DNA of 57,713 nucleotides from a virus, in the IMG/VR virus record IMGVR_UViG_3300027865_000010, positions 1-57,713 of that record. One strand, written 5' to 3'. This document shows, in pieces, positions 13,241 to 27,219 of the stretch (positions are counted from its first letter, which is position 1; each line of letters opens with the position of its first letter). The position numbers and the translations under genes are program-made. Below the pieces are notes generated by a model. That model worked only from the letters and a program-made list of their open reading frames with translations, was not told the origin of the DNA and did no database searches.

Positions 13241-13518
13241 ATGCGCGTAATATGCTGAAGCTGTGTAGGGCGGCGCATAAACGGCTGTATGCGCTGGAAA
13301 AGGTACTGCCACGCTTTCCGGTAGACCGCGATATCGCTAGTTTCATCTGCGCCGCACGTAGCGATGTCGCAGAGCTGGTGCATATCGCTAAGCTTGAGAC
13401 AGCCAATCGCGTCACCGTTGAACAGGTATCACATGTCCGCCAGATCCTGTCGGCAACACGCAACCACCTACAAAGTGTCCCCGACGCCGCGGAGAAGGAG
13501 CCAGATGAAGAAGTTTAA
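13237..13518 (+). CDS. Small helical hypothetical protein
   Basis: 93 residues from the ATG overlapping the primase stop. All-helical, basic N-terminus, acidic C-terminus. It overlaps the start of the CMP-sugar synthetase gene by 14 bases, so it is the link between the replication gene and the sugar operon. No family recognised. Confidence 0.65.
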   Translation: MNARNMLKLCRAAHKRLYALEKVLPRFPVDRDIASFICAARSDVAELVHIAKLETANRVTVEQVSHVRQILSATRNHLQSVPDAAEKEPDEEV

Positions 13519-14209
13519 GGTCGTCGGCGTCGTGCCGGCAAAGGGCACCAGTACACGCGTGCCTGGAAAGAACATGCGTGTACTCGGCGGACAGGGTCCG
13601 CCATTGGCCGCCAGGGCCTTTAACAAGTTGCGGAGCGTCCCCGAGATCGACAAGGTGTTTCTCGATACGGACTGCCCCGAGATCCGCGCAAGCGTAGAGA
13701 CAGACGAGTGCGCGCACGTCATACGCCGGTCGTCGCAGCTGGACACAAACAGCACGGACGGCAACCATCTGTTGCTCGACACCATGTCACGTATACCGGC
13801 AAGGATCTATGTGCAGTACCTCTGTACCAGTCCGTTTGTGCGTCCGGAGACGATCAGCAAGGCGATAAAGGAAGTCGTTTATCACGACTATGACGGTGCA
13901 TTCCTGGTATGCAAAGCACACCTGCTCCGCTGGCATCGTCGGGGCCTCCCCGTCCAGGATATCTGCCAGCCGTGTTACAACTTGAAACCCCTACCCAACA
14001 GCCAAACTGTACCTGAGACGGTTTGGGACACCACCGCGCTGTACGTAGTCACCAGCGAGGCGTTGATGCGCACACGCTGCCGCACACCGATGCCTAACGT
14101 CTCTATGATCTTCGTCGACGCCCTCGAGGCTATCGATATCAACACAGAAGAAGACTTCGACATTGCCGATCTAATCGCACGCGGGCAGAATGCACTAACC
14201 AAGCACTAG
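13505..14209 (+). CDS. CMP-nonulosonate (CMP-sialate/KDO-type) synthetase-like
   Basis: 234 residues from ATG 13505 with AAGGAG upstream. The N-terminal VVPAKGTSTRVPGKNMR loop (residues 9-24) matches the nucleotide-binding signature of NeuA/KdsB-type cytidylyltransferases, and the C-terminal EAIDINTEEDFDIAD fits the conserved closing Asp motif. The enzyme would activate an acidic sugar (a sialic, pseudaminic or KDO-type acid) with CTP. It is first in a four-enzyme cluster with a glycosyltransferase, an aldolase-like protein and NeuB. Sugar identity cannot be read from sequence. Confidence 0.85.
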   Translation: MKKFKVVGVVPAKGTSTRVPGKNMRVLGGQGPPLAARAFNKLRSVPEIDKVFLDTDCPEIRASVETDECAHVIRRSSQLDTNSTDGNHLLLDTMSRIPARIYVQYLCTSPFVRPETISKAIKEVVYHDYDGAFLVCKAHLLRWHRRGLPVQDICQPCYNLKPLPNSQTVPETVWDTTALYVVTSEALMRTRCRTPMPNVSMIFVDALEAIDINTEEDFDIADLIARGQNALTKH

Positions 14210-14217
14210 GTACTACT

Positions 14218-14970
14218 ATGATCGTCTCTGTTGTAGCAAACGGCCCATCTGCGGCCGGCAAGGGCAAGAGCATCGACAATGCGGACAAGGTCGTCCGTAT
14301 CAAGGCCTTTTGGGCGCACGCTGCCGAGGACGCGGGTAAGCGTACCCACGCGGTCGCCTGGTTTGGTGACCCTTATGGGTGGGACAGCAGGCCTGCTGAT
14401 CTCTACTGTGAGCACTGGTACACGCACGGCCCGACGCAGATAATGCACAACACCGTAAACGGCAAGCGGAATCTGCGAGAGTTCAACAAGCTCGCTGACA
14501 TGCAGCCGATACGGTGGCTTACGCACGAGTACTGGAAGCGGCTAGCCTTCAGACTCAAGCTTTGTCCGTCTACAGGCTTCATTGCCGTGGCTATGGCTAT
14601 GAAGGTCTTCAAGCCAGACGTACTCAAACTGTTTGGCTTCGATTCGACGGTACCCGAGCAACCACACTACTACGATGCGCGGACCCCGTATGTTGACGCT
14701 GGGTTTCCGCACATGATGCTGAAAGAGAAGCTGCTGTTCGCCAAGATCCTTGACGGCAGTTGGCTTGGGCAGCCATGTACGACCCAACTGTGCTGGTGTG
14801 CTATGCCGGATCTCGTACGCCGTCTGCGTACAGAAGACGATCCAGAGCTACTCCAGCGCTATGCAGATGCCTTTGACGTCGGTGTCGAGGGTGCGTTTAC
14901 AGCTGCCGCTGACCCAATGCTATCAGCGTTTCCACTGAAACCAGGAGACCCACGTGCAGACAGTAGTTGA
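14218..14970 (+). CDS. Sialyltransferase-like glycosyltransferase (GT29/GT42 type)
   Basis: 250 residues. The start VSVVANGPS (residues 3-11) and the internal PSTGFIAVAMAM...LFGFD (117-142) resemble the CMP-sugar-binding motifs of GT42 and GT29 sialyltransferases. A late His (150) could serve catalysis. It probably transfers the sugar made by the flanking NeuA/NeuB-like enzymes. Acceptor unknown: DNA, capsid or host surface are all possible. Nine bases separate it from the synthetase gene. Confidence 0.75.
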   Translation: MIVSVVANGPSAAGKGKSIDNADKVVRIKAFWAHAAEDAGKRTHAVAWFGDPYGWDSRPADLYCEHWYTHGPTQIMHNTVNGKRNLREFNKLADMQPIRWLTHEYWKRLAFRLKLCPSTGFIAVAMAMKVFKPDVLKLFGFDSTVPEQPHYYDARTPYVDAGFPHMMLKEKLLFAKILDGSWLGQPCTTQLCWCAMPDLVRRLRTEDDPELLQRYADAFDVGVEGAFTAAADPMLSAFPLKPGDPRADSS

Positions 14971-15610
14971 GCGTCTGCGCCGGCTGTATGCTGGCGTGGT
15001 CTATGACACGATGTACTTCGACATGGACCTACGAAATTTCACGCCGGGTACGACTATCAAACCGCTAGGGCGACACGCCCCGCGGCCGCTTGTTGGCCCT
15101 GCGTTTACGTGTGTGGGACAGCACCTAGCCGACGATAAACTACTCGACGACAGTGTGCGACTTACGATGCTACAGGAAATGACGCCCGGCTGCGTACAGG
15201 TGATCGACGGCGGTGACGACCTGAGCGTTGCGCACTACGGCGACATTTCGGCTAGGCTAGCACGTAAGGCTGGCGCTGTTGGTGCTGTCATTCGTGGCCA
15301 TACCCGCGATGCGCGCATGATCCGGCAGATCAAGTTTCCCGTCTATTGCTTGGGCGTAACGCCGGTAGATGCGTACGGTCGGTGGCAAATTCGTGCATGG
15401 CAAAAACCGATTTGGCTCAGTCCAACGGTCCGAGCACAGCCTAACGACATCATCTTTGCAGATAACGATGGCGTACTGGTTATCCCGCATGCAAAGGCAG
15501 AACAGATCTGTATCCACGCAGAAGCGCGGGCCGTTATCGAAGACAAGATCCGAGCAGACCTGGAAGAGCTCACGCCGGAGGCGCTGTACTCAAGACACGG
15601 GAGGTGGTAA
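14954..15610 (+). CDS. RraA-family aldolase-like protein
   Basis: 218 residues from GTG 14954 after CCAGGAGA. The RraA/HMG-CHA aldolase core is visible: RGHTRDA (114-120) with catalytic Arg-Asp, then FPVYCLGVTP, and DIIFADNDGVLVIP (about 165-178). Catalytic members are metal-dependent pyruvate aldolases; others bind RNase E. Next to NeuB and NeuA a role in making or trimming an alpha-keto-acid sugar is more likely. Confidence 0.85.
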   Translation: MQTVVERLRRLYAGVVYDTMYFDMDLRNFTPGTTIKPLGRHAPRPLVGPAFTCVGQHLADDKLLDDSVRLTMLQEMTPGCVQVIDGGDDLSVAHYGDISARLARKAGAVGAVIRGHTRDARMIRQIKFPVYCLGVTPVDAYGRWQIRAWQKPIWLSPTVRAQPNDIIFADNDGVLVIPHAKAEQICIHAEARAVIEDKIRADLEELTPEALYSRHGRW

Positions 15611-15797
15611 TGCCTACTATCTTGGCCAGCAGGAACGGGAGACGGCAGCAGCTGTACGAGAGGCCAAAGCAGTCATCCGCCAGAAAGAGGCGCGGATCAA
15701 AGAGCTCGAGAAACAGCGTAAGGCGGAACAGCAACATACAGCTGCGTTGCTTGCAGCCGGTGACGTAGTTCCGATACGGGAGGCAGACAATGGTTGA
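15610..15797 (+). CDS. Coiled-coil open frame lacking a clear start
   Basis: The frame read from about 15612 to 15797 encodes a convincing coiled coil (ERETAAAVREAKAVIRQKEA... then EQQHTAALLAAGDVV) whose stop overlaps the NeuB start. No ATG/GTG/TTG lies in frame after the previous gene. The ATG at 15610, overlapping the RraA stop (TAATG), opens a different frame of 52 codons. A -1 shift early in that frame would make one protein. Otherwise the start is non-standard or a base is missing. Confidence 0.45.
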
Positions 15798-16707
15798 GCT
15801 CGTAGCCGAGTTTACGACAAACCACATGGGCCATATGGGGCTGTTGCTCCGCATGGTCAAAGCGGCCAAGCAGGCCGGCGCTGATACCATCAAGATGCAG
15901 AAGAAGCACGTGAAGTCGTTCTACACCCCCGAAAAGCTGAACAGTCCCTATTCCAGCCCGTTCGGGAAGACCTATCGGGACTATCGGACCATGTTCGAGC
16001 TCGATGATGGTGACTGGCACCGCTTCAGCGCAGAGTGCCGCTATGCGGACATCCCGTGGTATGCTACCGCGCAGACTGCAGATAGTATGGCATTCCTGCG
16101 TGGAAACTCAGTACGGCGGCGCATCAAGGTCTCATCCACGAACGCGCATAAGCCAGAAGTCCTGCGACAGATTGCGGCAGAGACGCCGGTATCATGGGAG
16201 GTCGTGCTGTCAGTTGCTGGCTGCACGCTGCCTGAGATCGAGCAGGTGATCGCGATATTCGAGGAGCACAAGAAGCTCTGGATCCTGCACTGTGTCGCTG
16301 TGTACCCGTGCCCGGACCTCTATCTTCGGCTGGAGAACATCCCTACGCTGAAGCGGTTATTCGGGTCAGATAGGATCCGTATTGGCTACTCAGGGCACGA
16401 GATGGGCATCAAGTCATCAATCATGGCTGCACAGCTGGGCGCTGAGATGGTCGAGCGGCATTTCTGCCTGTCCCGCCACTCATTCGTCCATCACATCGAT
16501 TGCAGCCTGGAGCCCGCGGAGTTCAGGGCGCTGGCAGACGCGGTCCACAGTGACGATCTGGCAATAGTTGAGCTGGAGGCGAAGGATGTTCCCGAAGCAG
16601 ATTTCGGGATGTCGGACGCAGAAAAGCCGTTTCTAGTTGACCAGGCGTACGGAACACAGTATCTTGGTACTTCTAGCACGTTCGACCCGCGCTTACGGCG
16701 CACATGA
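15790..16707 (+). CDS. NeuB-like nonulosonate synthase
   Basis: 305 residues. The start LVAEFTTNHMGHMG (residues 4-17), DTIKMQKK and a late IGYSGHEMGI segment are the pattern of NeuB/SpsE enzymes, which condense phosphoenolpyruvate with a six-carbon amino sugar to give a nine-carbon acid. The C-terminal antifreeze-like (SAF) domain common in bacterial NeuB seems absent, so this is a catalytic-domain-only form. Last gene of the sugar operon; a 12-bp hairpin follows. Confidence 0.88.
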   Translation: MVELVAEFTTNHMGHMGLLLRMVKAAKQAGADTIKMQKKHVKSFYTPEKLNSPYSSPFGKTYRDYRTMFELDDGDWHRFSAECRYADIPWYATAQTADSMAFLRGNSVRRRIKVSSTNAHKPEVLRQIAAETPVSWEVVLSVAGCTLPEIEQVIAIFEEHKKLWILHCVAVYPCPDLYLRLENIPTLKRLFGSDRIRIGYSGHEMGIKSSIMAAQLGAEMVERHFCLSRHSFVHHIDCSLEPAEFRALADAVHSDDLAIVELEAKDVPEADFGMSDAEKPFLVDQAYGTQYLGTSSTFDPRLRRT

Positions 16708-16940: not shown

Positions 16941-17220
16941 GTCAGCCTCCTTCGATCAGGAACTAGGTGTTAGGCAACCCTACGGGGGGTTGTCACGAGA
17001 AATCTGCAAGCTCTGCTATCACCCAAACCCTGTTGGGTTTGACGTGCCTGATGACGTATGGGCTGCGGTTGTGCCCAGCGAGTACCGCAACCGCGTCGTC
17101 TGCCTCCCCTGCTTTGTGCGACTCGCAGATGAGAAATTGATCGCATGGGACACAGATATTCAGTTTTACCCCGTAAGTGTTGCGACCCACCGTTCTGCTG
17201 TCAATAGCTCTTGCATGTAG
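16939..17220 (+). CDS. Small zinc-binding phage protein
   Basis: 93 residues from ATG 16939. Two cysteine pairs (ICKLCYHPNPVGFDVP and VVCLPCFVRLAD) form a likely zinc ribbon of a type I have seen in other phages, function unknown. The tail VATHRSAVNSSCM looks like random extension. The earlier in-frame opening at 16882 would cross the truncated-gene junction, so I chose 16939. Confidence 0.7.
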   Translation: MSASFDQELGVRQPYGGLSREICKLCYHPNPVGFDVPDDVWAAVVPSEYRNRVVCLPCFVRLADEKLIAWDTDIQFYPVSVATHRSAVNSSCM

Positions 17221-17498
17221 ATAGGGGTAGATTTTGCCCCAGAAACCAGCAATCTCTCGGCTGTTGTGCGCGCAATCGCACGTTCATACGTGAGCATAAA
17301 CAAGGCAAGGCCTGTAAGCTCTGTGGCTTTGACGACTGGCGGGCGCTGTGTTATCATCACAGAGTCCCTGCTGAGAAGACGGCTAACGTCGAGCAGATGA
17401 CCAACAGGTCTTTCAGCCTGGCCATGCTTCAAGCTGAGGTCGATAAGTGTGATATCCTATGCATGAACTGCCACACTATCATGCACCATCCAGAATAG
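17211..17498 (+). CDS. HNH-type endonuclease, small
   Basis: The C-terminal half carries ACKLCGF...CYHHRVPAEK and DKCDILCMNCHTIMHH, a clear treble-clef HNH signature with zinc Cys and catalytic His. The start is uncertain: the only candidate is TTG 17211, overlapping the previous stop, and the first ~30 residues look degraded. Probably a free-standing homing endonuclease next to the tRNA-Met gene. Confidence 0.75.
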   Translation: MHVDRGRFCPRNQQSLGCCARNRTFIREHKQGKACKLCGFDDWRALCYHHRVPAEKTANVEQMTNRSFSLAMLQAEVDKCDILCMNCHTIMHHPE

Positions 17499-17508: not shown

Positions 17509-17581
17509 AGCGCGGTAGAGCAGTTGGTAGCTCACGTGGCTCATAACCACGCAGTCGGCAGTTCGAGTCTGCCCCGCGCCA
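17509..17581 (+). tRNA. tRNA-Met (CAT)
   Basis: Full cloverleaf: D-arm GAGC/GCTC, anticodon stem CGTGG/CCACG with loop CTCATAA, T-loop TTCGAGT. Could also be a CAT-anticodon Ile tRNA needing lysidine. The first acceptor pair is A1 against C72, a mismatch; the other six pair. CCA not encoded. Confidence 0.92.
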
Positions 17582-17587
17582 CTTTCA

Positions 17588-17615
17588 GGGCGACCGTGTT
17601 GGTCGCCCGTTTTTC
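17588..17615 (+). terminator. Intrinsic terminator after tRNA-Met
   Basis: Perfect stem GGGCGACC / GGTCGCCC with loop GTGTT, followed by GTTTTTC. Ends the tRNA-Met transcript before the coiled-coil gene. Confidence 0.85.
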
Positions 17616-17644
17616 ATTGTGCACCAAAGGAGTAGATTCCAGAG

Positions 17645-18538
17645 ATGGCACGAGCCAAAAAGCGCACAACAGTGGAAACAGCAGCGGCGCTCGCTGCTAC
17701 GTCGGAAGCCGACGTTAAGAAGACACTCGATCAGCTCAACGACCTACAGGTAAGCGTGCAGGGCACGCTAGCCGGCGTTGGCGTGTCCATGGCCACCAAG
17801 ATCGAAGAGCTCACCCAGCTGGAGACAGCGATCTCCGCCCGCAAGGATGAGCTAAAAGAGATCCACTCGATCGAGATGGATGCTGACACGCTTGCCAACA
17901 TCAAGCAGCAGATCGAAGAGGAGGAGGAGCGCGCTGCGGAGACAGCGGCCGCCACCGACAAGGCGTTTGCGTTGCGCCGGTCCGAGCAGGACCAGGAGTG
18001 GCAGCGTCGCGGCGAAGAGCATGCATATGCGCAGGGCCGTAGGCTAGAACGCATTGCAGCAGAAGCTGACGACGCGCGCACGACGGCACAACGCGCAGAG
18101 GCAGTCAGGACGGAAGACGTCAACAGGGATCTGGCCGCGCGTGTTGCCGTCGTCGCCGAGCGCGAAGAGAAAGCCGAAGAGCTGCAAACCAAGGTCGACG
18201 GCATCGAGGACCTGGTCGCCACAGCCGCAAAAGAGGCCACGGACGCGGCCACCAAGACGCTTACGGCTGGATTTGGCCATGAGCGCGCGCTGCTGAAGAA
18301 GGACGCCGAGTCCGCAGCACAGCTGGCAGCCGCAACGATTACGAACCTGACGGGCGACGTCCAATCGCTCCAGACACGTATCGAAATGCTCGCGGATCAG
18401 CTGGCAACAGCACAGAAGGACGCAAAGGACGTCGCTACGGCGGCAGTCGAGGCTTCCTCGAACCGTCAGGCACTGTCTACGCTCCAGGCCGCTGTTGAAA
18501 CACAGGCACGCGCAGCTGCAGGCGGGCGCGGCCGCTAG
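17645..18538 (+). CDS. Long coiled-coil protein
   Basis: 297 residues, predominantly Ala/Glu/Lys/Arg heptad-like sequence from about residue 55 to 270 with a Gly/Arg end. No enzyme motif. Such proteins in phages can be tail-tape-like, scaffold-like or membrane-remodelling, but neither context nor motifs decide. ATG preceded by AAAGGAG. A strong terminator follows. Confidence 0.8.
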   Translation: MARAKKRTTVETAAALAATSEADVKKTLDQLNDLQVSVQGTLAGVGVSMATKIEELTQLETAISARKDELKEIHSIEMDADTLANIKQQIEEEEERAAETAAATDKAFALRRSEQDQEWQRRGEEHAYAQGRRLERIAAEADDARTTAQRAEAVRTEDVNRDLAARVAVVAEREEKAEELQTKVDGIEDLVATAAKEATDAATKTLTAGFGHERALLKKDAESAAQLAAATITNLTGDVQSLQTRIEMLADQLATAQKDAKDVATAAVEASSNRQALSTLQAAVETQARAAAGGRGR

Positions 18539-18563
18539 AATTTCTCCTAGGGTTGGAGGACCC

Positions 18564-18604
18564 GGCAGGCGGCTCGATGTGCTCGGGCCGCCTGCCAACT
18601 TTTT
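18564..18604 (+). terminator. Intrinsic terminator
   Basis: Ten-base-pair stem GGCAGGCGGC / GCCGCCTGCC followed by AACTTTTT, directly after the coiled-coil gene. Confidence 0.88.
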
Positions 18605-18673
18605 GAGGCAACTTCGTGTTTTGACATCTTTGATGGCGGCAAGCAGCTGGTCGAGCCGGCTGCTTGCTGCCTG

Positions 18674-18746
18674 CGGACGATAGCTCAGTTGGTAGAGCGC
18701 ATCCCTGATAAGGATGAAGTCGGAGGTTCAACTCCTTCTCGTCCGA
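18674..18746 (+). tRNA. tRNA-Ile (GAT)
   Basis: Acceptor CGGACGA/TCGTCCG, anticodon stem CATCC/GGATG with loop CTGATAA, T-loop TTCAACT. Fully paired acceptor. Lies between the coiled-coil terminator and the 18916 gene. Confidence 0.93.
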
Positions 18747-18915
18747 CCTCAGAGCGGTGGCAAGCCCGGCAAGTGTGGGCCATATGTAGGCCTATGATAA
18801 CGCGCCGTAGGAGCCAGCAGCGTGGGTATGGAGCGCCACGAGACTACTCTCGTACGTCCACAAGTATCGGTGCAAACCCGATCCGCTCTTAACAATCACA
18901 ACAAAGGAGACCCGG

Positions 18916-19134
18916 ATGCCGATTACGAAATGCGTTTGCCGTAATGCGTGGCAGGATGACAGATACGGTCCTGGCATGCGTGTGGTGAACAGAACACGCG
19001 TGGGGACCGTAGGCGGGGAACGATGTACCTCCTGCGGCAAAGACGTCATCAAGGCCGCTCCCAAGAAGCCAAAGGTGTCCGCGAAGGACGCGAAGAAGGA
19101 CGCCAAGGCCAAGCAGAAAGAGAAGCGGCGCTAG
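18916..19134 (+). CDS. Small zinc-ribbon protein with Lys-rich tail
   Basis: 72 residues: KCVCRNAWQDDRYGPGMRV...RCTSCGKDV is a two-knuckle zinc ribbon, then a Lys/Ala-rich tail likely to bind nucleic acid. I have seen this small family in phages but know no function. AAAGGAG precedes ATG. Confidence 0.75.
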   Translation: MPITKCVCRNAWQDDRYGPGMRVVNRTRVGTVGGERCTSCGKDVIKAAPKKPKVSAKDAKKDAKAKQKEKRR

Positions 19135-19175
19135 GAACGTACGGACAGACTCGAACGTCAAGGCGTGTTCGAGTC

Positions 19176-19246
19176 GGCCCCCTAGCCTAATGGTAGGGCG
19201 CCGCGCTGTCGACGCGGAGGCAGGAGTTCAATTCTCCTGGGGGCGC
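19176..19246 (+). tRNA. tRNA-Asp (GTC)
   Basis: Anticodon stem CCGCG/CGCGG with loop CTGTCGA; D-arm GCCTAATGGTAGGGC; T-loop TTCAATT. First acceptor pair is G1 against G72 (mismatch), others pair. Confidence 0.9.
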
Positions 19247-19262
19247 TGAAAGGAGTACAGTG

Positions 19263-19442
19263 ATGAGAAAAGTAGTGCATCGATTCTACCGCGGTGCGTG
19301 CGGGATCGTGGGCGTTGTGGTGTTGTCGCGTCGTACGCAGGACCATTGCCAACACCGCTGGATGTTCCGTGACTGGCCGCAGGGCAAAGAAAGCAACTGG
19401 CCGCTGCTCTGCTCCATATGCGGGGCCTGCAGTAGATCATGA
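19263..19442 (+). CDS. Small hypothetical protein (59 aa)
   Basis: ATG follows AAAGGAGTACAGTG. Basic N-terminus, C-terminal LLCSICGACS cysteine cluster suggesting metal binding. Sits between tRNA-Asp and tRNA-Trp. Family unknown. Confidence 0.55.
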   Translation: MRKVVHRFYRGACGIVGVVVLSRRTQDHCQHRWMFRDWPQGKESNWPLLCSICGACSRS

Positions 19443-19525
19443 CCGTAATCGTAGGCCGAAAGCCGTATCCGTGGCCCTGCCACCGGCGCCGCGGCTGGTG
19501 CTGTTCAATCATTTCAAGACCTTGA
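19439..19525 (+). CDS. Very small hypothetical protein (28 aa)
   Basis: ATGA overlap with the previous gene; sequence rich in Pro, Arg, Trp and Cys (PYPWPCHRRRGWCC). Supported only by the overlap and by filling the space up to the tRNA-Trp gene. Confidence 0.35.
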   Translation: MTVIVGRKPYPWPCHRRRGWCCSIISRP

Positions 19526-19534
19526 TGTAAAGAA

Positions 19535-19604
19535 AAGGCGGTCCGCCTGGGAGCGGCTTGCGGTTCCAAACTGCAAAGATGAGGTTCGACTCCTTGCCGT
19601 CTTG
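19535..19604 (+). tRNA. tRNA-Trp (CCA)
   Basis: Acceptor AAGGCGG/CCGTCTT, anticodon stem TGCGG/CTGCA with loop TTCCAAA, T-loop TTCGACT, discriminator G as usual for Trp. Only three bases separate it from tRNA-Glu. Confidence 0.88.
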
Positions 19605-19607
19605 CCT

Positions 19608-19682
19608 GGCCCGTTCGTCTAGTCGGTCTAGGACACCGGCCTTTCACGCCGGCAACGCGGGGTTCAAATCCCCCACGGGTCA
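19608..19682 (+). tRNA. tRNA-Glu (TTC)
   Basis: Anticodon stem CCGGC/GCCGG with loop CTTTCAC; acceptor GGCCCGT/ACGGGTC; T-loop TTCAAAT. A short hairpin CCGGCA/TGCCGG follows. Confidence 0.92.
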
Positions 19683-19887
19683 CATACACACACACCGCCG
19701 GCACACAGTGCCGGGGAGCCAGGGACAACCAGTAACCACTTAAAACATGCTATGGTTAGAATTGTCCTCCTGTAACGTCGGCTTATGGCGAGCGCGGAGG
19801 GGTCGCAACCGGATGGCCGAGGGGTGATTGGCGTAGGGGCATACAAGGCCCCGAAGCCAATTCCGACTTCGGACGGCGTTATAGCAT
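19683..19887. other. Non-coding stretch with promoter-like and tRNA-like sequence
   Basis: Contains an extended -10 candidate ACATGCTATGGTTAG near 19745-19760, closely matched by ACATGCTATGCTTGG near 27326. Between 19815 and 19884 there is a D-arm-like GGCCGAGGGGTGATTGGC, a 5-bp stem GGGGC/GCCCC with 7-base loop, and a hairpin CCGAAG/CTTCGG, but no pairing acceptor ends. It may be a decayed tRNA or small structured RNA. Confidence 0.35.
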
Positions 19888-19960
19888 CGCCCGCTAGCTC
19901 AATCGGCAGAGCGCATGCCTCTGGAGCATGGTGTTTCAGGTTCAAGTCCTGAGCGGGCTG
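19888..19960 (+). tRNA. tRNA-Gln (CTG)
   Basis: Anticodon stem CATGC/GCATG with loop CTCTGGA; D-arm GCTCAATCGGCAGAGC; T-loop TTCAAGT. The first acceptor pair is C1 against T72 (mismatch). Confidence 0.9.
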
Positions 19961-20071
19961 TTTACGTTTCGCCCAGCAAATGTGGGTGTTTGACTGTGGC
20001 ACCAGTTCCAGCCATGGTACATCAAGGCATGGCGGCAACTGCGGTACCAACCGAAATGGTGGCTATGGCGG

Positions 20072-20341
20072 GTGTACGCGGTTATCCGCTGGACCCTGTC
20101 ACGTCTTTGGCGAGAACCGCCAGCAGAAGACTACCAACTTGATGACTTTGAGACCTGGTCGGGCGGTATGCGCCGTATCAATAGCTACGCCAGCGCGATG
20201 GCTGGCTTCGCTATGGGGCACTACTACGCGGCAGCCGAAGCCATTGACAACCTGCGAGTACGCAGCGACACTCGGGGAAACACCACCGAGGTTACAGTAG
20301 GCCAAGAGTCGGCCAACCCAGAAGTTGAGCAGCAGCAGTAG
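20072..20341 (+). CDS. Hypothetical protein, start uncertain
   Basis: About 89 residues from GTG 20072: DDFETWSGGMRRIN then an Ala-rich helix with HYYAAAEAIDN. The same frame is open upstream to about 19998 and encodes a Trp-rich piece (WRQLRYQPKWWLWRVYAV) that looks genuine, but no standard start codon lies there. The gene could start at a rare codon upstream. Unknown function. Confidence 0.55.
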   Translation: MYAVIRWTLSRLWREPPAEDYQLDDFETWSGGMRRINSYASAMAGFAMGHYYAAAEAIDNLRVRSDTRGNTTEVTVGQESANPEVEQQQ

Positions 20342-20351
20342 GAGGGCCACA

Positions 20352-21110
20352 ATGCCCACAAAGTTGAGTCAGATTGTCGCCGTAACGAACGGCAAGAAGA
20401 AACGCACCCAGGCGAAGATCACCGAGGTGTACCACAGGATCCAGAAGGACACCCTGTTCTCAGGCATCACCCGCGAGTACAGGCCCATCGATGACGAGGG
20501 CGTAGATCTTCCGCCGGAGTCCCGTGGCGTGCAGATGCAGGTCGCACATGCGGTCAAGCAGGTGGCGGATGCCATGACAGACCTGTTTGACACGGTCGCC
20601 ACACAAGACTATAACAACTGCACTGCGACGGCCCATGTTGTCGTCAACGGCAAGGTCATCCTGCGCGACGTTCCGGTTACCAATCTGCTCTTCCTGGACA
20701 AGCAGTTGGAAGACATCCGGACGTTCATCTCGAAGCTACCGCTTCTGCCGCCGGAGAAGGAGTGGGTATGGAGCACCGAGCACGGCTGCTTCAAGTCGAA
20801 GACGGAGGAGACAAGCAAAACCAAGCGCGTCCCGAAGGCGCACGTATTGTCCGAGGCTACGGAGCATCATCCGGCCCAGGTCAACGAGTTCCACGAGGAC
20901 GAGATCGTCGGTTGGTGGCACACCGTCCACCTGTCCGGCGCAATGCAGGCGCAGAAGCGCAGTGAAATGGTCGAGCGGGTGACGAAGCTGCACGACGCAG
21001 TCAAGTTCGCCCGACAGAAGGCCAACGAAATGGAAGTTACGTCGTACAAGGTCGGCAAGCCGATCTTCGACTTCATTTGCGAAGGAGCAACGCCACAGCC
21101 GGAAGGCTGA
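20352..21110 (+). CDS. Conserved actinophage-type protein (DUF7873-like)
   Basis: 252 residues beginning MPTKLSQIVAVTNGKKKRTQ, with LPPESRGVQ, an NLLFLDKQLEDIRTFISKLP block and IVGWWHTVHLSGAM near the end. From memory this is a widespread family in actinobacteria and their phages (I believe DUF7873), function unknown. ATG 20352 after AGGAGGGCCACA. It gives the clearest host hint in the window. Confidence 0.85.
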   Translation: MPTKLSQIVAVTNGKKKRTQAKITEVYHRIQKDTLFSGITREYRPIDDEGVDLPPESRGVQMQVAHAVKQVADAMTDLFDTVATQDYNNCTATAHVVVNGKVILRDVPVTNLLFLDKQLEDIRTFISKLPLLPPEKEWVWSTEHGCFKSKTEETSKTKRVPKAHVLSEATEHHPAQVNEFHEDEIVGWWHTVHLSGAMQAQKRSEMVERVTKLHDAVKFARQKANEMEVTSYKVGKPIFDFICEGATPQPEG

Positions 21111-21142
21111 TGGCTTTTCGAAGCTTAGACTGAGATTGAGGC

Positions 21143-21158
21143 TAAGAGGCGCATGCCT
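21143..21158 (+). repeat. 16-base repeat TAAGAGGCGCATGCCT, copy 2
   Basis: Identical to 690-705. Here it overlaps the putative 3' half of a permuted tRNA. Coincidence of a shared control element with tRNA sequence must be considered. Confidence 0.55.
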
Positions 21159-21266
21159 TTGAGCCTGGGTTCGAGTCCCAGGGCCGGTGACTAACATACT
21201 CCCTGACGTTCCATGAGGATGTCAGGTCACAATCACACCGGCTAGCCCAGTGGTCGAGGCAAGGCA
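21154..21266 (+). ncRNA. Possible circularly permuted tRNA (3' half before 5' half)
   Basis: 3' half: TGCCT at 21154-21158, a canonical T-arm CTGGG-TTCGAGT-CCCAG and acceptor GGCCGGT ending 21188. After 48 bases comes a 5' half: ACCGGCT at 21237-21243 (7 bp with GGCCGGT; 8 if C21236-G21189 is counted), D-arm GCC...GGC, then AGGCA at 21262-21266, which pairs with TGCCT as a 5-bp anticodon stem. The linker itself folds (CCTGAC/GTCAGG). Anticodon not determinable. No permuted tRNA is known to me in a phage, so confidence is limited. Confidence 0.4.
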
Positions 21267-21357
21267 TTGCCCATCAGACCCAGATTCTCGCTCCAAGCTG
21301 ACAACCCCGATACAGTCAGCCACATCATCAAGCGCCGTGCCATGACAACACATGGAT

Positions 21358-21440
21358 GGGAGTTCGATTCTCTCCCCCGGGCACTCGCTAACCAACCCAC
21401 AAGCCCGGGTCGTATAACGGTAATACAATCTGTTTGACAG
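21358..21440 (+). ncRNA. Second possible permuted tRNA
   Basis: T-arm GGGAG-TTCGATT-CTCTC and acceptor CCCGGGC (21376-21382), a 20-base linker, then GCCCGGG (21403-21409), canonical T8 and D-arm GTAT-AACGGTA-ATAC (21412-21426), then an anticodon-like AATCTGTTTGACAGACT. The acceptor halves pair perfectly only in this inverted order. The join in the anticodon/variable region is unresolved. Confidence 0.35.
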
Positions 21441-21537
21441 ACTAAAACCACGGCTTAAACGGATACAGGATGTGGCACGCATCAGTGCTAGTATCGAAAC
21501 CAGTCCGCTCCACTAGGTTAGCGTGGGGCGGACTCCA

Positions 21538-21610
21538 GTCCCTTAATCGTCCAATGGGCAGGACACCGGGCGGACACCCGGAGACGCCGGTTCGAACCCG
21601 GCAGGGGCAC
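21538..21610 (+). tRNA. Degenerate tRNA-like sequence
   Basis: Good D-arm (GTCCAATGGGCAGGAC) and T-arm (GCCGG-TTCGAAC-CCGGC), but the acceptor ends pair poorly and the anticodon region CCGGG-CGGACA-CCCGG has no T33 and an abnormal loop. Decayed tRNA or a part of a split/permuted gene. No amino acid assigned. Confidence 0.4.
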
Positions 21611-21647
21611 TTATCGGTGACCTTTGACTAAACGAGAAGGCATGGAG

Positions 21648-21679
21648 GTCTGTAACGGGTTCGAATCCCGGCCAAGCGC
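21648..21679 (+). other. Isolated T-arm-like 3' tRNA fragment
   Basis: ACGGG-TTCGAAT-CCCG followed by GCCAAGCGCC, with no matching D-arm upstream. The end pairs with the following GGCGCTT as a hairpin (AAGCGCC-ACC-GGCGCTT). Remnant tRNA or part of the next structured transcript's upstream terminator. Confidence 0.35.
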
Positions 21680-21709
21680 CACCGGCGCTTGTGCAAGCCG
21701 AACCGATTT

Positions 21710-21738
21710 TTGAGACACTACTCCCTCTACAGTATATA
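21710..21738 (+). promoter_or_regulatory. Sigma-70-type promoter for the structured RNA
   Basis: -35 TTGAGA (21710-21715), 17-base spacer, -10 TATATA (21733-21738). Transcription would start near 21745, at the base of a 10-bp hairpin. Confidence 0.65.
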
Positions 21739-21740
21739 CG

Positions 21741-22178
21741 AGCATACGTGTTCTTGCCAAAACACGTATGCTCCACTCTTTCGTACGTAAAGTGTCGTGT
21801 CTACTGGCAAGTGAGCTCAAGCGAACAGAACTCGTCCCTATCGCCGACGGTAGCGGGACTATGTTCGCGAGCGGCTTAAAAACGGATGTAAGGGCTCTGC
21901 GACAGTCGGCGCAACCCGAAGCATCTGTGCTTGGAGAGAGGGCCTTTCTGAGGACCCCGAGGGCCAAGCCGACGCTTCTTTCTACAGACGCTGGCCGAAA
22001 GGCAATCCGACAGGAATCACGCATAGTAGGGGAAGGCCAGTCCGATCCGAACCCGTTGATTCAGTCCGGTTCTGAACACCTATGGGGCAACATCGTCGGC
22101 TGGCCGTGTGTCGAAAGTGTTCATGGATGCCCAGAGGGTTAGTACAGCCCAGGGCGCGCATCCAAGCAGCGCCTTTTT
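21741..22178 (+). ncRNA. Large structured non-coding RNA (~430 nt)
   Basis: No convincing protein frame. It starts with a perfect hairpin AGCATACGTG/CACGTATGCT (21741-21772), then GCGAACA (21821) pairing TGTTCGC (21862) enclosing GTCCC/GGGAC and TATCG/CGGTA, then a three-way junction closed by GTCGGC (21905)/GCCGAC (21968) with hairpin AAGCA-TCTG-TGCTT, further stems CTGGCC/GGCCAG and GGATGC/GCATCC, and a terminator. Size, tRNA neighbourhood and ornate folding recall GOLLD or ROOL RNAs of phages, but I cannot match either consensus by eye. Confidence 0.6.
22153..22178 (+). terminator. Intrinsic terminator of the structured RNA
   Basis: Stem GGCGC/GCGCC (22153-22157/22169-22173) followed by TTTTT. 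Confidence 0.75.
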
Positions 22179-22208
22179 CTACAACCCAGAGAGGACCGAA
22201 GACTTCTG

Positions 22209-22412
22209 ATGCCATGTAAGTGTGGCCAGCCTACTGGCCCGTACGGCGACCTTTGTGAAGATTGCTGGGTCGCACGACAAACCTTCCGGAGCGTTGGTCC
22301 TACTCGGCGACCAGCACGACGGAATCGTCGCGCAATTTCGCGCCCACGCGGCACTGTGTCGCGCGGACCGCAGCCTGCAGCCGTTGAGGCCTTTGAGGCC
22401 CTGTTCAGCTAG
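22209..22412 (+). CDS. Small zinc-binding protein
   Basis: 67 residues. MPCKCGQPTGPYGDLCEDCW is a compact zinc ribbon of a kind common in actinophage small proteins; the rest is Arg/Pro-rich. A second plausible coding stretch follows in another frame (to 22573), so the original gene may have been longer and frameshifted. Confidence 0.6.
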   Translation: MPCKCGQPTGPYGDLCEDCWVARQTFRSVGPTRRPARRNRRAISRPRGTVSRGPQPAAVEAFEALFS

Positions 22413-22417
22413 TAGCG

Positions 22418-22573
22418 CACTACCACGCCACGCCTCTGAAGATCCTTGGCGTCGACGACAACGTCTTCGACACGCTCAAGGAGATGGTGCCAAGCATCGC
22501 AGCTCGGCTCCTGGACCCGCTGACAGGTGTCCGCGGCAACGGTCAAGACGTTGCGGAGACGACGCGAGTCTAG
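22418..22573 (+). pseudogene. Protein-like frame without a start
   Basis: The frame ending TAG 22571-22573 reads LKILGVDDNVFDTLKEMVPS... and looks genuinely coding, but has no start codon between the upstream stop and the helical part. Likely the 3' end of a broken gene, perhaps the frameshifted continuation of the 22209 gene or the remains of another. Confidence 0.4.
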
Positions 22574-22580
22574 CTGAACC

Positions 22581-22596
22581 TTGTTCAGCTGAACAA
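22581..22596. promoter_or_regulatory. Perfect palindrome TTGTTCAGCTGAACAA (site 2 of 6)
   Basis: Sixteen-base perfect inverted repeat after the broken frame and before the GC hairpin upstream of tRNA-Pro. Best example of the TTGTTC-N4-GAACAA family. Confidence 0.65.
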
Positions 22597-22628
22597 AATC
22601 AACGAAACTACGACCATTCGTGGTTTGG

Positions 22629-22664
22629 CCCGGGGCTCCTTCCTACCGAAGGGGAGCCCCGGGT
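22629..22664 (+). terminator. Strong GC hairpin before tRNA-Pro
   Basis: Eleven-base-pair stem CCCGGGGCTCC / GGAGCCCCGGG with a ~12-base loop, followed by TATTTCT. A terminator or tRNA-processing hairpin. Confidence 0.6.
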
Positions 22665-22670
22665 ATTTCT

Positions 22671-22744
22671 CGGGCATTGGGGAAGCCTGGTATCCCGCCT
22701 GCTCTGGGAGCAGGAAGGCGCTGGTTCAAATCCAGCATGCCCGA
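22671..22744 (+). tRNA. tRNA-Pro (TGG) with C33
   Basis: Acceptor CGGGCAT/ATGCCCG, D-arm GGGAAGCCTGGTATCCC, anticodon stem CCTGC/GCAGG with loop TCTGGGA, T-loop TTCAAAT. Position 33, nearly always U, is C here. Confidence 0.9.
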
Positions 22745-22774
22745 CTTTACAATCACTACAAAAAGGAGAGACAC

Positions 22775-23080
22775 ATGGCAAACTGGATCGCCCTTGAGGG
22801 TGACACACTGACTGATCTCAATGGCTTCGATCTGATCACTATCGACGCGTACGATACGGCAAACAAGGCGCCGCATGATGTAGACAACATGCCGCCTGGC
22901 CTGTCGGTTAATGACCCAGATCTGTGGATCATCCGCGCCTGGTTCCGCAGCGTAGACGATTGCCAAATCATTTTGGCGGCAGGCTCGGAGGCCTACTGCA
23001 AGCGGGTACATGCAGCAATTATCTACTCACTAAACGCACAAACCCTCACTGAGGTGCTCGAAAACGCCGGCAAAGCCTAA
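22775..23080 (+). CDS. Hypothetical protein (101 aa)
   Basis: ATG after AAAAGGAGAGACAC. Begins ANWIALEGDTLTDLNGFD, like an immunity- or scaffold-type small alpha/beta protein, but I cannot name a family. Its neighbour is a decayed gene. Confidence 0.75.
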   Translation: MANWIALEGDTLTDLNGFDLITIDAYDTANKAPHDVDNMPPGLSVNDPDLWIIRAWFRSVDDCQIILAAGSEAYCKRVHAAIIYSLNAQTLTEVLENAGKA

Positions 23081-23094
23081 CCTGCGAGGAAAGC

Positions 23095-23226
23095 ATGCAG
23101 ATCATCAGCGACTTCAAGGACTACTACGACGTAATCGCGTCGGCGGGGCAGGATCTGACGTTGAGGCCAAGGGCTTCGACCCGAAGTGGAGTTTCCGGAA
23201 GCCGCCCACCAAACACAGATGACTAA
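23095..23226 (+). pseudogene. Internally deleted phage gene (MQIISDFKDYYD family)
   Basis: The start MQIISDFKDYYDVIASAGQD matches a phage family I recall as ~200 residues long. After 20 codons the frame turns to nonsense, while another frame gives VEAKGFDPKWSFRKPP and a stop at 23222, the expected C-terminus of that family. The centre has been deleted and the join is out of frame. Confidence 0.6.
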
Positions 23227-23392
23227 CCATATTGGTGCTGCTATTCAGTGGGTGCTGTGCCGCCTGGGTTTTCACGAATGGGTGAAGATCCTTGGATCAC
23301 TGCCACCCCGCCGCCGATGCCTATACTGTGCAGCTGCTCAGATGTGCCATGTTAATGGCTGGGAGAATGCGCCCCTACCCAAAGAGGAGTAA
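23219..23392 (+). CDS. Small protein with CxxC
   Basis: 57 residues from ATG 23219 inside the tail of the decayed gene: LCRLGFHEWVKILGSLPPRRRCLYC resembles small Cys/His zinc proteins of phages. Followed directly by the 23396 gene. Confidence 0.6.
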   Translation: MTNHIGAAIQWVLCRLGFHEWVKILGSLPPRRRCLYCAAAQMCHVNGWENAPLPKEE

Positions 23393-23395
23393 ACC

Positions 23396-23986
23396 ATGGA
23401 CGTAGTGATTGCTGACGGATTCTGGAAGGGCTTCAAGCGTATCTGCCGGCCATGGTATCACCCGGCAAACCTGTGGTACAGCTTCAAGTGCTGGGCATGG
23501 AAGCGCCACACCACGATCAAGCCACGGTACCTGTCGCACACCTGGCATGACCGCTGCGTCATCTTGCCACACATGATGTTCGAGATACTGTCGCAGTTCA
23601 TCGAAGGAGAGTGCGGCCCTGATGGCCACGTAGAGTGGTACGGCGAGAATGCGCACATGATCACTGTGGCCGGCGAAGAGAAGTACGTCCGCGACGAGAT
23701 GCAGGAGCTCTATGACTGGTGGCACAAGAAGTACAACAAGAGGTACGAGGAGCTCGCTGAGTACATCCACGAAGAACGAGAGAAGCTCGACCTGATTAGC
23801 CACTTTCAGGACATACCCGATAGGCCCGGGATATGCCAGTGGAAACCGACGTATGGCATACCCGAAGACGCGCAGCGCGCTAAGGAGCTGTCAGAGTGGT
23901 ACAGCTTCTATGACATAGCCGTGGAGAACTCGCTGAAGCGACACATGCACAGGCTTGTTGCCATTTACCGGTCCATGTGGACATGA
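23396..23986 (+). CDS. Conserved phage hypothetical protein
   Basis: 196 residues rich in Trp, His and Tyr: KPRYLSHTWHDRCVILPHMMFEILSQFIEGE is similar to a phage family I have met as unknown. AAAGAGGAGTAAACC precedes the ATG. The stop overlaps the start of the next gene. Confidence 0.8.
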   Translation: MDVVIADGFWKGFKRICRPWYHPANLWYSFKCWAWKRHTTIKPRYLSHTWHDRCVILPHMMFEILSQFIEGECGPDGHVEWYGENAHMITVAGEEKYVRDEMQELYDWWHKKYNKRYEELAEYIHEEREKLDLISHFQDIPDRPGICQWKPTYGIPEDAQRAKELSEWYSFYDIAVENSLKRHMHRLVAIYRSMWT

Positions 23987-24192
23987 TCTCGCTCAAAGCC
24001 ATTGACCTGAGCAAAGGCCATGACCACGAACATCCAGACATCAAACTCAGCGCGCCGTACCTGATTAAGTGGTGCAATCGCTGGTCTGCGGGCCACTTCA
24101 ACCGTGTGTCGCAGGCATCACCGCCTTTACGTAACCTAAGGAGAGTGAGGATTCGAGATGAGAGAGGAACTGGAGCAGCAACTGTTCACTAA
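23983..24192 (+). CDS. Small hypothetical with RRVRIR tail motif
   Basis: 69 residues from ATG 23983 overlapping the previous stop. The first half looks folded (LIKWCNRWSAGHFNRVSQ); near the end LRRVRIRDER repeats the tail motif found in six other proteins. The bases encoding it also supply the ribosome site of the next gene, so part of this resemblance could be coincidence. Overlaps the 24158 gene by 35 bases. Confidence 0.55.
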   Translation: MISLKAIDLSKGHDHEHPDIKLSAPYLIKWCNRWSAGHFNRVSQASPPLRNLRRVRIRDERGTGAATVH

Positions 24193-24586
24193 GTACCCGG
24201 GGCTCTTCCGCGACCGCCACGGCGATACGCAACAAACGCGTATGGTGGACGGAGTTGGTTGCGGCGACGGGTGGTACGACCTGCTCGACAAGCTGTGCGC
24301 CGACATTACGGCGCAGCCTAACAGCGAGGACGTCGCGATCTTCCAGATTAAGGAGAAGTTCGGCGGCCTGCGCTTCTACGTTGGCGCCGCTAGCTCAGCA
24401 GTCCACGATCTAATATCGGCGGCCGAGGCGCAAGCATACAAGGTTTGCGAGGTCTGCGGCAGTGCTGATGACGTCAAGGCATGCGGGCCGCGATGGCTTA
24501 AATCGCTTTGCCCTGCTTGCCGCAAGGTACGCATTGCCGAGGTCGAGGCCCACCATCAACGACAGCAGCAAGGAACCAGCACTTGA
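24158..24586 (+). CDS. Conserved zinc-binding phage protein
   Basis: 142 residues. GVGCGDGWYDLLDKLC, FQIKEKFGGLRFYVG and CEVCGS...LCPAC form a pattern I know from many phages, function unknown; the C-terminal Cys pairs suggest a zinc ribbon. AAGGAGAGTGAGGATTCGAG precedes ATG. Coupled to the next gene by a TTGA overlap. Confidence 0.8.
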   Translation: MREELEQQLFTKYPGLFRDRHGDTQQTRMVDGVGCGDGWYDLLDKLCADITAQPNSEDVAIFQIKEKFGGLRFYVGAASSAVHDLISAAEAQAYKVCEVCGSADDVKACGPRWLKSLCPACRKVRIAEVEAHHQRQQQGTST

Positions 24587-24867
24587 AATTGCTCTTTTGT
24601 GATGCCTGCGGCGACATTGTCAAGCTGCGAAGCGAGACACGGACATGTAGCTGCAAGAAAAGCGGCGGGCATTACACCAACCACCTTGATGCTGTCTACT
24701 GGGGGCCAGCAATGCCCCTCGGTGTCGACAACATGAGCTTCGCCACAGCGCTGCATGAGCGCCCAACCGAAGGCAAGGGTTTTCGCTTTGCGGCCTTTGT
24801 AATCCCGAAACGATGCCCTACAATGATACAGCTCGAAGGCCCGGACGGTACACCCGTGGCCATCTGA
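24583..24867 (+). CDS. Small conserved protein with zinc ribbon
   Basis: 94 residues from TTG 24583, supported by overlap with the previous stop and AAGGA upstream. LLFCDACGDIVKL...CSCKKSGGHY followed by GPAMPLGVDNMSFATALHERP and FVIPKRCPT is a small conserved family in phages and actinobacteria as I recall. Function unknown. Confidence 0.75.
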   Translation: MKLLFCDACGDIVKLRSETRTCSCKKSGGHYTNHLDAVYWGPAMPLGVDNMSFATALHERPTEGKGFRFAAFVIPKRCPTMIQLEGPDGTPVAI

Positions 24868-24899
24868 GAGCTGACTGCAGCGTAGAACCGGCAGAAGCC

Positions 24900-24973
24900 G
24901 GCTCGGTAGGCAACTGGCAGACCACCTTGGCTTAGAACCAGGGATGCTGTGAGTTCGAATCTCACCTGAGCCA
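24900..24973 (+). tRNA. tRNA-Leu (TAG), short variable arm
   Basis: Acceptor GGCTCGG/CTGAGCC, anticodon stem CTTGG/CCAGG, loop CTTAGAA, T-loop TTCGAAT, A73. The variable region is only GATGCT, whereas bacterial Leu tRNAs normally carry a long arm. Confidence 0.9.
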
Positions 24974-24980
24974 TTCAGCA

Positions 24981-25063
24981 GGGCGATGTTCCCGACGGCA
25001 GACTGTAAATCTGTTGGCATTATGTCGGGCGGTCACCAAGAGGTGCGACTCCTCCATTTCCCA
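24981..25063 (+). tRNA. tRNA-Tyr-like (GTA), D-arm disrupted
   Basis: Anticodon stem GCAGA/TCTGT with loop CTGTAAA and a long variable region fit Tyr. The acceptor pairs six of seven (GGGCGAT/ATTTCCC). The D-arm lacks about nine bases after CCCGACGG; instead CCCGAC (24991-24996) can pair with GTCGGG (25024-25029) in the variable region. T-loop is TGCGACT instead of TTCGACT. Possibly a pseudo-tRNA. Confidence 0.55.
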
Positions 25064-25066
25064 TTG

Positions 25067-25140
25067 GGGCCGATAGCCCAATTGGCAGAGGCGCTAGGTC
25101 GAGGGCCTAGCCAGTGCGGGTTCGACTCCTGTTCGGCCTA
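25067..25140 (+). tRNA. tRNA-Leu (GAG) with C33, short variable arm
   Basis: Acceptor GGGCCGA/TCGGCCT (G1-T72 wobble), anticodon stem CTAGG/CCTAG, loop TCGAGGG: position 33 is C. Variable region CCAGT. T-loop TTCGACT. Confidence 0.82.
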
Positions 25141-25145
25141 CTCGA

Positions 25146-25219
25146 TGCCCAGTAGGCAAGTGGCAGACCACCTGGACTTAAAATCCGGGATGCTGTGGGT
25201 TCGAATCCCACCTGGGCCA
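25146..25219 (+). tRNA. tRNA-Leu (TAA), short variable arm
   Basis: Anticodon stem CTGGA/TCCGG, loop CTTAAAA, variable GATGCT, T-loop TTCGAAT, A73. First acceptor pair T1 against C72 is a mismatch; the rest pair. Confidence 0.9.
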
Positions 25220-25223
25220 CTAC

Positions 25224-25298
25224 GGTCCGGTGCGTCCAATTGGCAGAGCGGCCCGGCTCAAAACCGGGCGGTTGTAGGTTCGAATCCTACCCGGACTA
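25224..25298 (+). tRNA. tRNA-Leu (CAA), short variable arm
   Basis: Acceptor GGTCCGG/CCGGACT, anticodon stem CCCGG/CCGGG, loop CTCAAAA, variable CGGTT, T-loop TTCGAAT, A73. Confidence 0.9.
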
Positions 25299-25415
25299 TT
25301 GGGAATCCAGATCACGGGGCCGCTTGGGCTGGACGATGGCGTTGAGGAGCGGCGGTGTGTACCAGAGAGGGCTGAGAGCGCCACTTACCTACTTGAATGA
25401 CTAAAGGAGATGCTC
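25299..25415. other. Leader of the Clp N-domain gene
   Basis: No gene seen. Ends with a clear ribosome site AAAGGAG at 25403-25409, six bases before ATG 25416. Confidence 0.4.
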
Positions 25416-26129
25416 ATGTACGAGCGGTTCACAGATGATGCGAGGAGGTTGTTCCAGCGGGCCAACAAAGAGGCGCAGCGGTTCAATCACGAATACATCG
25501 GCACCGAGCACATCCTGCTTGGGCTGGTCAAAGGGGACGGCGAGGTCGCAGTCAACATACTGAAGAACCTCGACGTCGATCCGCGGAAAGTCCGGCTCGA
25601 GGTAGAGAAGCTTATGCATAGCGGGCCCGACATGGGCACCGTGGGCAAGCTACCGCAAACGCCCAGGGCTAAAAGGGTCATCGAGTACGCGCAAGGGGAG
25701 GCCCGAGTTACCGAGTTCAACTACGTGAGCACCGAGCAGGTCCTGATCGGCCTGCTGCGCGAGCAGGAAGGCGTCGCGGCCCAGGTGCTGACGGGCCTCG
25801 GGGTAACGCTCGAAGCCGTGCGTGCGCAGGTAGCAGTTGCACCCGATACGGATACGCCCAAGACTTGGGACGCAGAGCGCGGCGCGCTGCTTGCCCATCA
25901 GGCGGCAACAGATGCGCGTATTCGCGCGATGACGGCCCAGTTCAATCGGCTGCTGGAGCTCGTAAAGATCCCGAATCCCGCACGAGACATCGCCAATGAG
26001 GCCAATGAGCTGCTTGCAGCCAAGGATCGCAGGATCGAACAGCTGGAGCGACAGCTGGAGCAGCAGCTGGCGGAGCAGGAGCAAGCTTGGGCCGCGGCGC
26101 ACCAATCTGCCGGGGAGGCCGATGAATGA
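25416..26129 (+). CDS. Stand-alone Clp N-domain (ClpC-like) protein
   Basis: 237 residues. Two Clp repeats: MYERFTDDARRLFQRANKEA...YIGTEHILLGLVKG and RVIEYAQGEA...YVSTEQVLIGLLREQEG, as in ClpC N-domains. No AAA+ ATPase part follows, only a coiled coil (LERQLEQQLAEQEQ). In ClpC this domain binds adaptors, phospho-arginine and substrates, so a solo copy could compete for or redirect host Clp protease partners. ATG 25416 fits the ribosome site better than ATG 25410. Confidence 0.88.
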   Translation: MYERFTDDARRLFQRANKEAQRFNHEYIGTEHILLGLVKGDGEVAVNILKNLDVDPRKVRLEVEKLMHSGPDMGTVGKLPQTPRAKRVIEYAQGEARVTEFNYVSTEQVLIGLLREQEGVAAQVLTGLGVTLEAVRAQVAVAPDTDTPKTWDAERGALLAHQAATDARIRAMTAQFNRLLELVKIPNPARDIANEANELLAAKDRRIEQLERQLEQQLAEQEQAWAAAHQSAGEADE

Positions 26130-27138: not shown

Positions 27139-27145
27139 ACAACGG

Positions 27146-27218
27146 TACCCGGTAGCTCAATTGGCAGAGCGCAGGGTTTTGGTCCCTGAGGTTCCAAGTT
27201 CAAGTCTTGGCCGGGTTG
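27146..27218 (+). tRNA. tRNA-Gln (TTG)
   Basis: Anticodon stem CAGGG/CCCTG, loop TTTTGGT; D-arm GCTCAATTGGCAGAGC; T-loop TTCAAGT. First acceptor pair T1 against T72 is a mismatch. Confidence 0.9.
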
Positions 27219-27219
27219 T

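Follow-up and report, generated by a model that had tools for sequence, protein, structure and literature searches.

Introduction

Enzymes of the NeuB family make 2-keto-3-deoxy acids from phosphoenolpyruvate (PEP) and an aldose. In the Neisseria enzyme, Arg314 of the SAF domain is essential (PMC6795526). RraA-family proteins occur widely, mostly under annotations as RNase regulators or catabolic aldolases, and for one of them, FlDet, the substrate is a 2-keto-3-deoxy hexarate (PMC8563752). Among phages, an Azotobacter phage has been annotated with a putative sialyltransferase (PMC12772287), and open-access papers on RraA with NeuB, on phage-encoded NeuB and on phage GT29 enzymes contained no report of the module described here. 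We analyze a block of four genes on a 57,713-base IMG/VR virus fragment (IMGVR_UViG_3300027865_000010), an incomplete phage that we call the window. The block occupies positions 13505–16707 of the plus strand and encodes, tightly packed, a cytidine monophosphate (CMP)-sugar synthetase (henceforth NeuA), a GT29/GT42-type transferase, an RraA-family protein and a NeuB-type synthase. With moderate confidence, we read it as the phage copy of a rare bacterial 3-deoxy-2-ulosonic acid pathway, equipped with a transferase of its own.

An initial annotation, made from the DNA letters without database searches, had proposed that these genes could in principle make, activate and transfer an acidic sugar, and the family assignments obtained here by profile and fold searches bear this out. 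Here a single short stretch of viral DNA would serve to synthesize a charged sugar, activate it and transfer it. The block also opens a way to test whether RraA-family proteins take part in biosynthesis, and it directs attention to an acidic surface sugar to which present gene-based predictions of sialic-type sugars would give the wrong name.

Results and discussion

The NeuB-type synthase of the window has no SAF domain and no equivalent of Arg314, and it misses all NCBIfam equivalog cutoffs. Its PEP and metal residues are present (E25, K53, Q55, T110, K129, S132, S154, Y186, S213, H215, E234 and H236 in Neisseria numbering). On the acceptor side, by contrast, five positions are exchanged relative to Neisseria NeuB (N74 to S, F112 to Q, E134 to N, N184 to A and D247 to H), and these swaps are fixed or nearly fixed in the clade to which the protein belongs. 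Roles of Neisseria NeuB residues beyond those given in the paper cited for Arg314 are general knowledge. F112, E134 and D247 are common to N-acetylneuraminic acid (Neu5Ac) and pseudaminic acid synthases, and the window protein carries Q95, N118 and H235 in their place; Q, N and H at these positions are specific to the clade, the D247 equivalent being Asp in 82 of 83 other viral SAF-less NeuBs and position 112 mostly W or F. By these residues and by the missing SAF domain with its Arg314, the protein falls outside the N-acetylneuraminate/pseudaminate synthase subfamily. Because five acceptor-side residues are replaced and the SAF arginine is absent, acceptors of the N-acetylmannosamine (ManNAc) type appear unlikely. 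Loss of NeuB activity was considered as well; it was ruled out at the PEP/metal site, where the residues are kept, and accepted for the acceptor site only. The initial annotation would have been undercut by a loss of active-site residues in NeuB or NeuA; the outcome is split, and for NeuB the PEP/metal site is intact while the acceptor site is replaced.

These exchanges bear on the simplest alternative, an ordinary nonulosonic acid cassette in which a standard sialic, legionaminic or pseudaminic acid is made from a host precursor and transferred by the GT29 enzyme, with RraA a bystander or acting elsewhere. Such a cassette would explain why Pfam and NCBIfam place NeuB and NeuA nearest to NeuB_NnaB, PseI and PseF, why the metal/PEP site of NeuB is intact and why the transferase belongs to the sialyltransferase family GT29. 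We nevertheless consider it quite unlikely, as the equivalog cutoffs are far from reached (140 against 400 bits for NeuB_NnaB), F112, E134, D247 and the SAF arginine are gone, the cassette contains neither UDP-N-acetylglucosamine epimerase nor aminotransferase as precursor enzymes, and the RraA linkage is fixed across several phyla.

This linkage emerged from alignment-based scans, which recovered 17 loci of the NeuB clade on six distinct viral contigs (L005, L006, L007, L085, L086 and L090) and in eleven bacterial genomes from Pseudomonadota, Myxococcota, Eisenbacteria, Cyanobacteriota/Melainabacteria and Oscillospiraceae. RraA, NeuB and NeuA are a set that is also present in scattered bacteria. 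The clade is rare: sampling found it in one genome out of 385 from the class to which Eilatimonas belongs and in three out of 386 from the Prochlorococcus phylum, too few for host assignment. IMG/VR scans with a single NeuB or GT29 sequence gave no match, so that alignments were needed; in INPHARED, the GT29 and RraA proteins had no match and NeuB had just three, all distant. The same four-gene block that the initial annotation had proposed to look for in other phages, GT29 gene included, occurs in L085, L005 and L086. L085 is the nearest relative of the window (52% identity in NeuB, 46% in GT29, 48% in RraA and 32% in NeuA) and its sister in the NeuB and RraA trees (91/89 and 83/88, respectively). 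Purifying selection acts on NeuB, RraA and NeuA in related phages, pairs of which give ratios of nonsynonymous to synonymous substitution rates of 0.08–0.09, 0.05–0.18 and 0.08–0.16, respectively. This selection, together with the recurrence of the cassette in phages and bacteria, rules out chance assembly or decay.

At 14 of the 17 clade loci, RraA lies immediately 5' of NeuB; the 77 other viral SAF-less NeuB loci offer no such case (Fisher p = 4e-14, for related and therefore not independent sequences). Eight of the eleven bacterial genomes encode a clade-type RraA at E ≤ 1e-91, always adjoining NeuB, while the remaining genome matches are 5e-37 or weaker. Of the three genomes that lack it, two encode a short-chain dehydrogenase just upstream of NeuB, and these two dehydrogenases are 74% identical. 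Rather than the unexpected member it had been taken for, RraA is a standing 5' neighbour of the clade NeuB in phages and bacteria and a part of the pathway, not a surprise insertion.

The window RraA keeps G96, D97, R118, D119 and E196, which correspond to G101, D102, R123, D124 and E199 of HMG/CHA aldolase; in that enzyme, D124 and E199 have been described as metal ligands and R123 as stabilizing the enolate (PMC5065237). Equivalents of G101, R123, D124 and E199 are kept in all 15 aligned RraA rows. An AlphaFold2 model of the protein (predicted local distance difference test, pLDDT, 94) superimposes on HMG/CHA aldolase 3noj with Z 22.4 and a root-mean-square deviation of 2.1 Å over 196 residues, and on RraA-fold structures with Z 15–27. 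An assignment as E. coli-type RNase E regulator fails, with 21 and 55 bits for TIGR02998 and PRK09372 against cutoffs of 241 and 136. Because the residue set of class II pyruvate aldolases of the HMG/CHA type is retained, RraA probably acts on a 2-keto-3-deoxy sugar acid. Since the Mg2+-enolate site is retained and FlDet uses a 2-keto-3-deoxy hexarate, the most economical reading would let RraA work on the NeuB product at its keto-acid end.

The same intact aldolase residues could serve an antagonist, an RraA that cleaves or decarboxylates ulosonic acids or oxaloacetate, as HMG/CHA aldolase does, and so shapes keto-acid or pyruvate/PEP supply without taking part in biosynthesis. Known RraA-family enzymes are indeed catabolic (PMC5065237, PMC8563752). 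Degradation nonetheless seems unlikely to us, and tailoring fits better, because RraA stands immediately 5' of a biosynthetic NeuB wherever it is present, in bacteria and phages, and is swapped for a dehydrogenase in two genomes.

NeuA resembles CMP-sialate synthetases in profile searches of the Protein Data Bank (PDB; PpNeuA 9t4z 4e-30, murine CMAS 1qwj 8e-26, Neisseria 1eyr 7e-22) and matches NCBIfam PseF at 7e-15, below the cutoff of that model. D211 (Neisseria D209), K22 and N23 are kept, and the P-loop-like N-terminal motif is present with K13 in place of Neisseria Arg12. Of the metal-binding Asp pair, the second is exchanged, N213 of the DIN motif standing at Neisseria D211; this change and that of Arg12 are clade-wide. 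D211 binds metal in CMAS structures and has been called invariant in CMAS enzymes (PMC6580227). As judged from these residues, NeuA is likely but not certain to be an active CMP-synthetase, and its expected active site has stood in part, with D209, K22 and N23 retained and Arg12 and D211 lost. Because the acceptor site of NeuB is replaced and the CMP-synthetase carries Arg12 to Lys and Asp211 to Asn, the sequence suggests no standard sialic, pseudaminic or KDO (3-deoxy-D-manno-oct-2-ulosonic) acid as product, which is probably something other than a standard sialic-type acid.

For the transferase, the PF00777 match exceeds the gathering score, and the sialylmotifs L (VVANGPS...ID), S (PSTG), III (HYYD) and VS (H165...E170) are recognizable, with the motif residues N8, G120, H150 and H165 present. 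A profile built from 14 viral relatives, a few rows of which look more GT42-like, matched ST3Gal-I (9e-25), ST6Gal-I (8e-20) and the GT42 enzyme CstII (1e-6) in the PDB. The best 25 Foldseek matches of the predicted structure are all GT29 sialyltransferases, and VIA re-ranking put Cst-I (Z 12.9), CstII and ST8SiaIII on top at Z 12–13; with thiamin pyrophosphokinases next at Z 11, the fold does not settle the matter by itself. With sialylmotifs that include the catalytic His and a modelled GT29/42 fold, the protein is assigned to the GT29 sialyltransferases, and its placement among sialyltransferases, which a structure-based search might have overturned, has survived.

Proposed pathway

In the pathway that we favour, NeuB would first join PEP to an aldose other than ManNAc, probably an aldose phosphate, to give a 2-keto-3-deoxy sugar acid. 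An aldose-phosphate acceptor is suggested because the ManNAc-side residues and the SAF arginine are lost and a phosphatase is found in the bacterial operons: a histidine phosphatase gene lies next to NeuB or NeuA there (L092–L101) and in phage contig L090. If phosphorylated, the product would be dephosphorylated by this His-type enzyme in bacteria and one phage, and by a host enzyme in other phages. RraA, as a Mg2+/enolate enzyme, would then work on the C1–C4 keto-acid end of the sugar before activation, candidate reactions being C4 epimerization via retro-aldol/aldol chemistry or C4 dehydration. Lastly, the NeuA-like enzyme would make the CMP-sugar and the GT29 enzyme would move the sugar onto a glycan or protein, two steps that we infer from the family assignments. 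The acceptor, the RraA reaction, the order of steps and the target, for which phage DNA, virion and host surface are the candidates, are likewise what we infer.

The phosphatase also invites a KDO-like scheme, in which NeuB takes the part of KdsA and uses an aldose phosphate, for instance D-arabinose-5-phosphate, the His phosphatase stands in for KdsC and NeuA for KdsB, and CMP-KDO or an isomer results, with RraA setting C4 or editing host KDO. KdsA-type synthases also lack a SAF domain (PMC6795526). In Gastranaerophilales, NeuA is fused to a second, KdsB-like CMP-synthetase domain (L097, 3195–4577; L101, 11473–12864); this can be read in favour of the scheme, but it suggests a second sugar rather than the same one. 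The window NeuA is moreover closer to NeuA/PseF than to KdsB, and in L100 the module has a KdsC-like HAD gene as neighbour, so that a KDO route distinct from it may be present. We regard the KDO-like scheme as possible, if doubtful.

Several points weigh against the proposed phage copy of an ulosonic acid pathway. RraA is lacking at three of the 17 clade loci and hence dispensable in some versions, and the window cassette contains no phosphatase gene. One of the two metal Asp residues of NeuA is exchanged, the transferase has K29 where most relatives have the motif-L Asn, and its model is of moderate confidence only (pLDDT 66, predicted template modelling score 0.70). The selection figures describe related phage pairs rather than the window genes, whose nearest relative is 52% identical in NeuB, and we know of no assayed enzyme of this NeuB clade.

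A more far-reaching version, which we put forward tentatively, is that RraA-NeuB-(phosphatase)-NeuA makes a new class of bacterial ulosonic acid from an unrecognized acceptor, with C4 re-set by a biosynthetic RraA, and that phages acquired this module on several occasions, along with sialyltransferases, as a means of coating virion, DNA or host.

Genomic context

The four genes, for each of which Pfam supports the family given by the initial annotation, lie at the positions listed in Table 1. They were also said to be adjacent, which holds for strand and tight packing and is qualified by the gap that separates NeuB from RraA. The RraA gene has a GTG start with a good ribosome site upstream and overlaps the transferase gene by 17 base pairs. 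In the gap before NeuB, an open coiled-coil-like frame ends at 15797; close to where the gap begins, it has no usual start codon. PHROGs gave no name for any of the four proteins.

Table 1. Features of the four-gene block, in window coordinates.
Feature	Position	Strand	Evidence
CMP-ulosonate synthetase (NeuA/KdsB/PseF superfamily), 234 amino acids	13505..14209	+	PF02348, E = 2.3e-17
GT29/GT42-type sialyltransferase-like transferase, 250 amino acids	14218..14970	+	PF00777, 2.4e-8
RraA-family protein, 218 amino acids	14954..15610	+	PF03737, 7.4e-24
RraA-NeuB intergenic gap, 179 base pairs	15611..15789		sequence
SAF-less NeuB-type PEP-dependent ulosonate synthase, 305 amino acids	15790..16707	+	PF03102, 4.9e-45

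A small HNH endonuclease gene (17211–17498, plus strand) follows a short distance behind the cassette, and 16 predicted tRNA genes cluster just behind it at 17509–28297 on the same strand. The window also encodes a GpA-type terminase large subunit, a primase-like gene and an NAD-dependent DNA ligase. A second sugar-nucleotide gene of the fragment (47409–48962, plus strand) encodes an HldE-like bifunctional heptose kinase/adenylyltransferase (PRK11316 8e-79, below the model cutoff); we considered it as supplier of a heptose acceptor and found no evidence of linkage.

Beyond the window, its NeuB has relatives on at least 487 IMG/VR stretches; among the 80 best such loci (L005–L084), 12 have a GT29-like gene nearby and most a CMP-synthetase. 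In L006 (6878–7994) and L007 (6878–8003), two methyltransferase genes, one of them TylF-like, lie within the cassette, which is found just upstream of terminase- and portal-like genes and has an MptE-like protein in the place of GT29. The 484 kb phage LR756508 (L002, 7253–12074) carries a SAF-less NeuB of another clade amid four GT29-like genes.

Comparison with known systems

With the NeuB/PseI/LegI synthases (PF03102), the window clade shares the TIM-barrel NeuB domain, the PEP and metal ligands and a CMP-synthetase neighbour; it differs in the missing SAF domain, the five replaced acceptor-side residues and an RraA partner in place of epimerase and aminotransferase genes. The KDO-8-phosphate pathway (KdsA-KdsC-KdsB) has in common with it a SAF-less synthase, a phosphatase (in the bacterial operons) and CMP activation, whereas the clade employs a NeuB-type synthase, a NeuA-type CMP-synthetase, a His rather than a HAD phosphatase, and RraA. 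HMG/CHA aldolase agrees with the window RraA in fold and in the five active-site equivalents, yet the two are only 20% identical, and the window protein belongs to a clade of its own with a C-terminal GRW motif, in an operon of sugar biosynthesis instead of aromatic degradation. FlDet, a 2-keto-3-deoxy-hexarate dehydratase/decarboxylase of the same family, is comparable by its described function, in that its substrate class is the product class of NeuB; it functions, however, in a catabolic alginate pathway. The window transferase shares sialylmotifs, fold and the catalytic His of motif VS with GT29/GT42 sialyltransferases, but is small and viral, has K29 for the motif-L Asn and probably uses a donor other than CMP-Neu5Ac. 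The huge phage LR756508 and other viral islands likewise have a SAF-less NeuB beside GT29-like genes; their NeuB is of a different clade (D247 being kept in 82 of 83 viral NeuBs outside the window clade), and they have no RraA.

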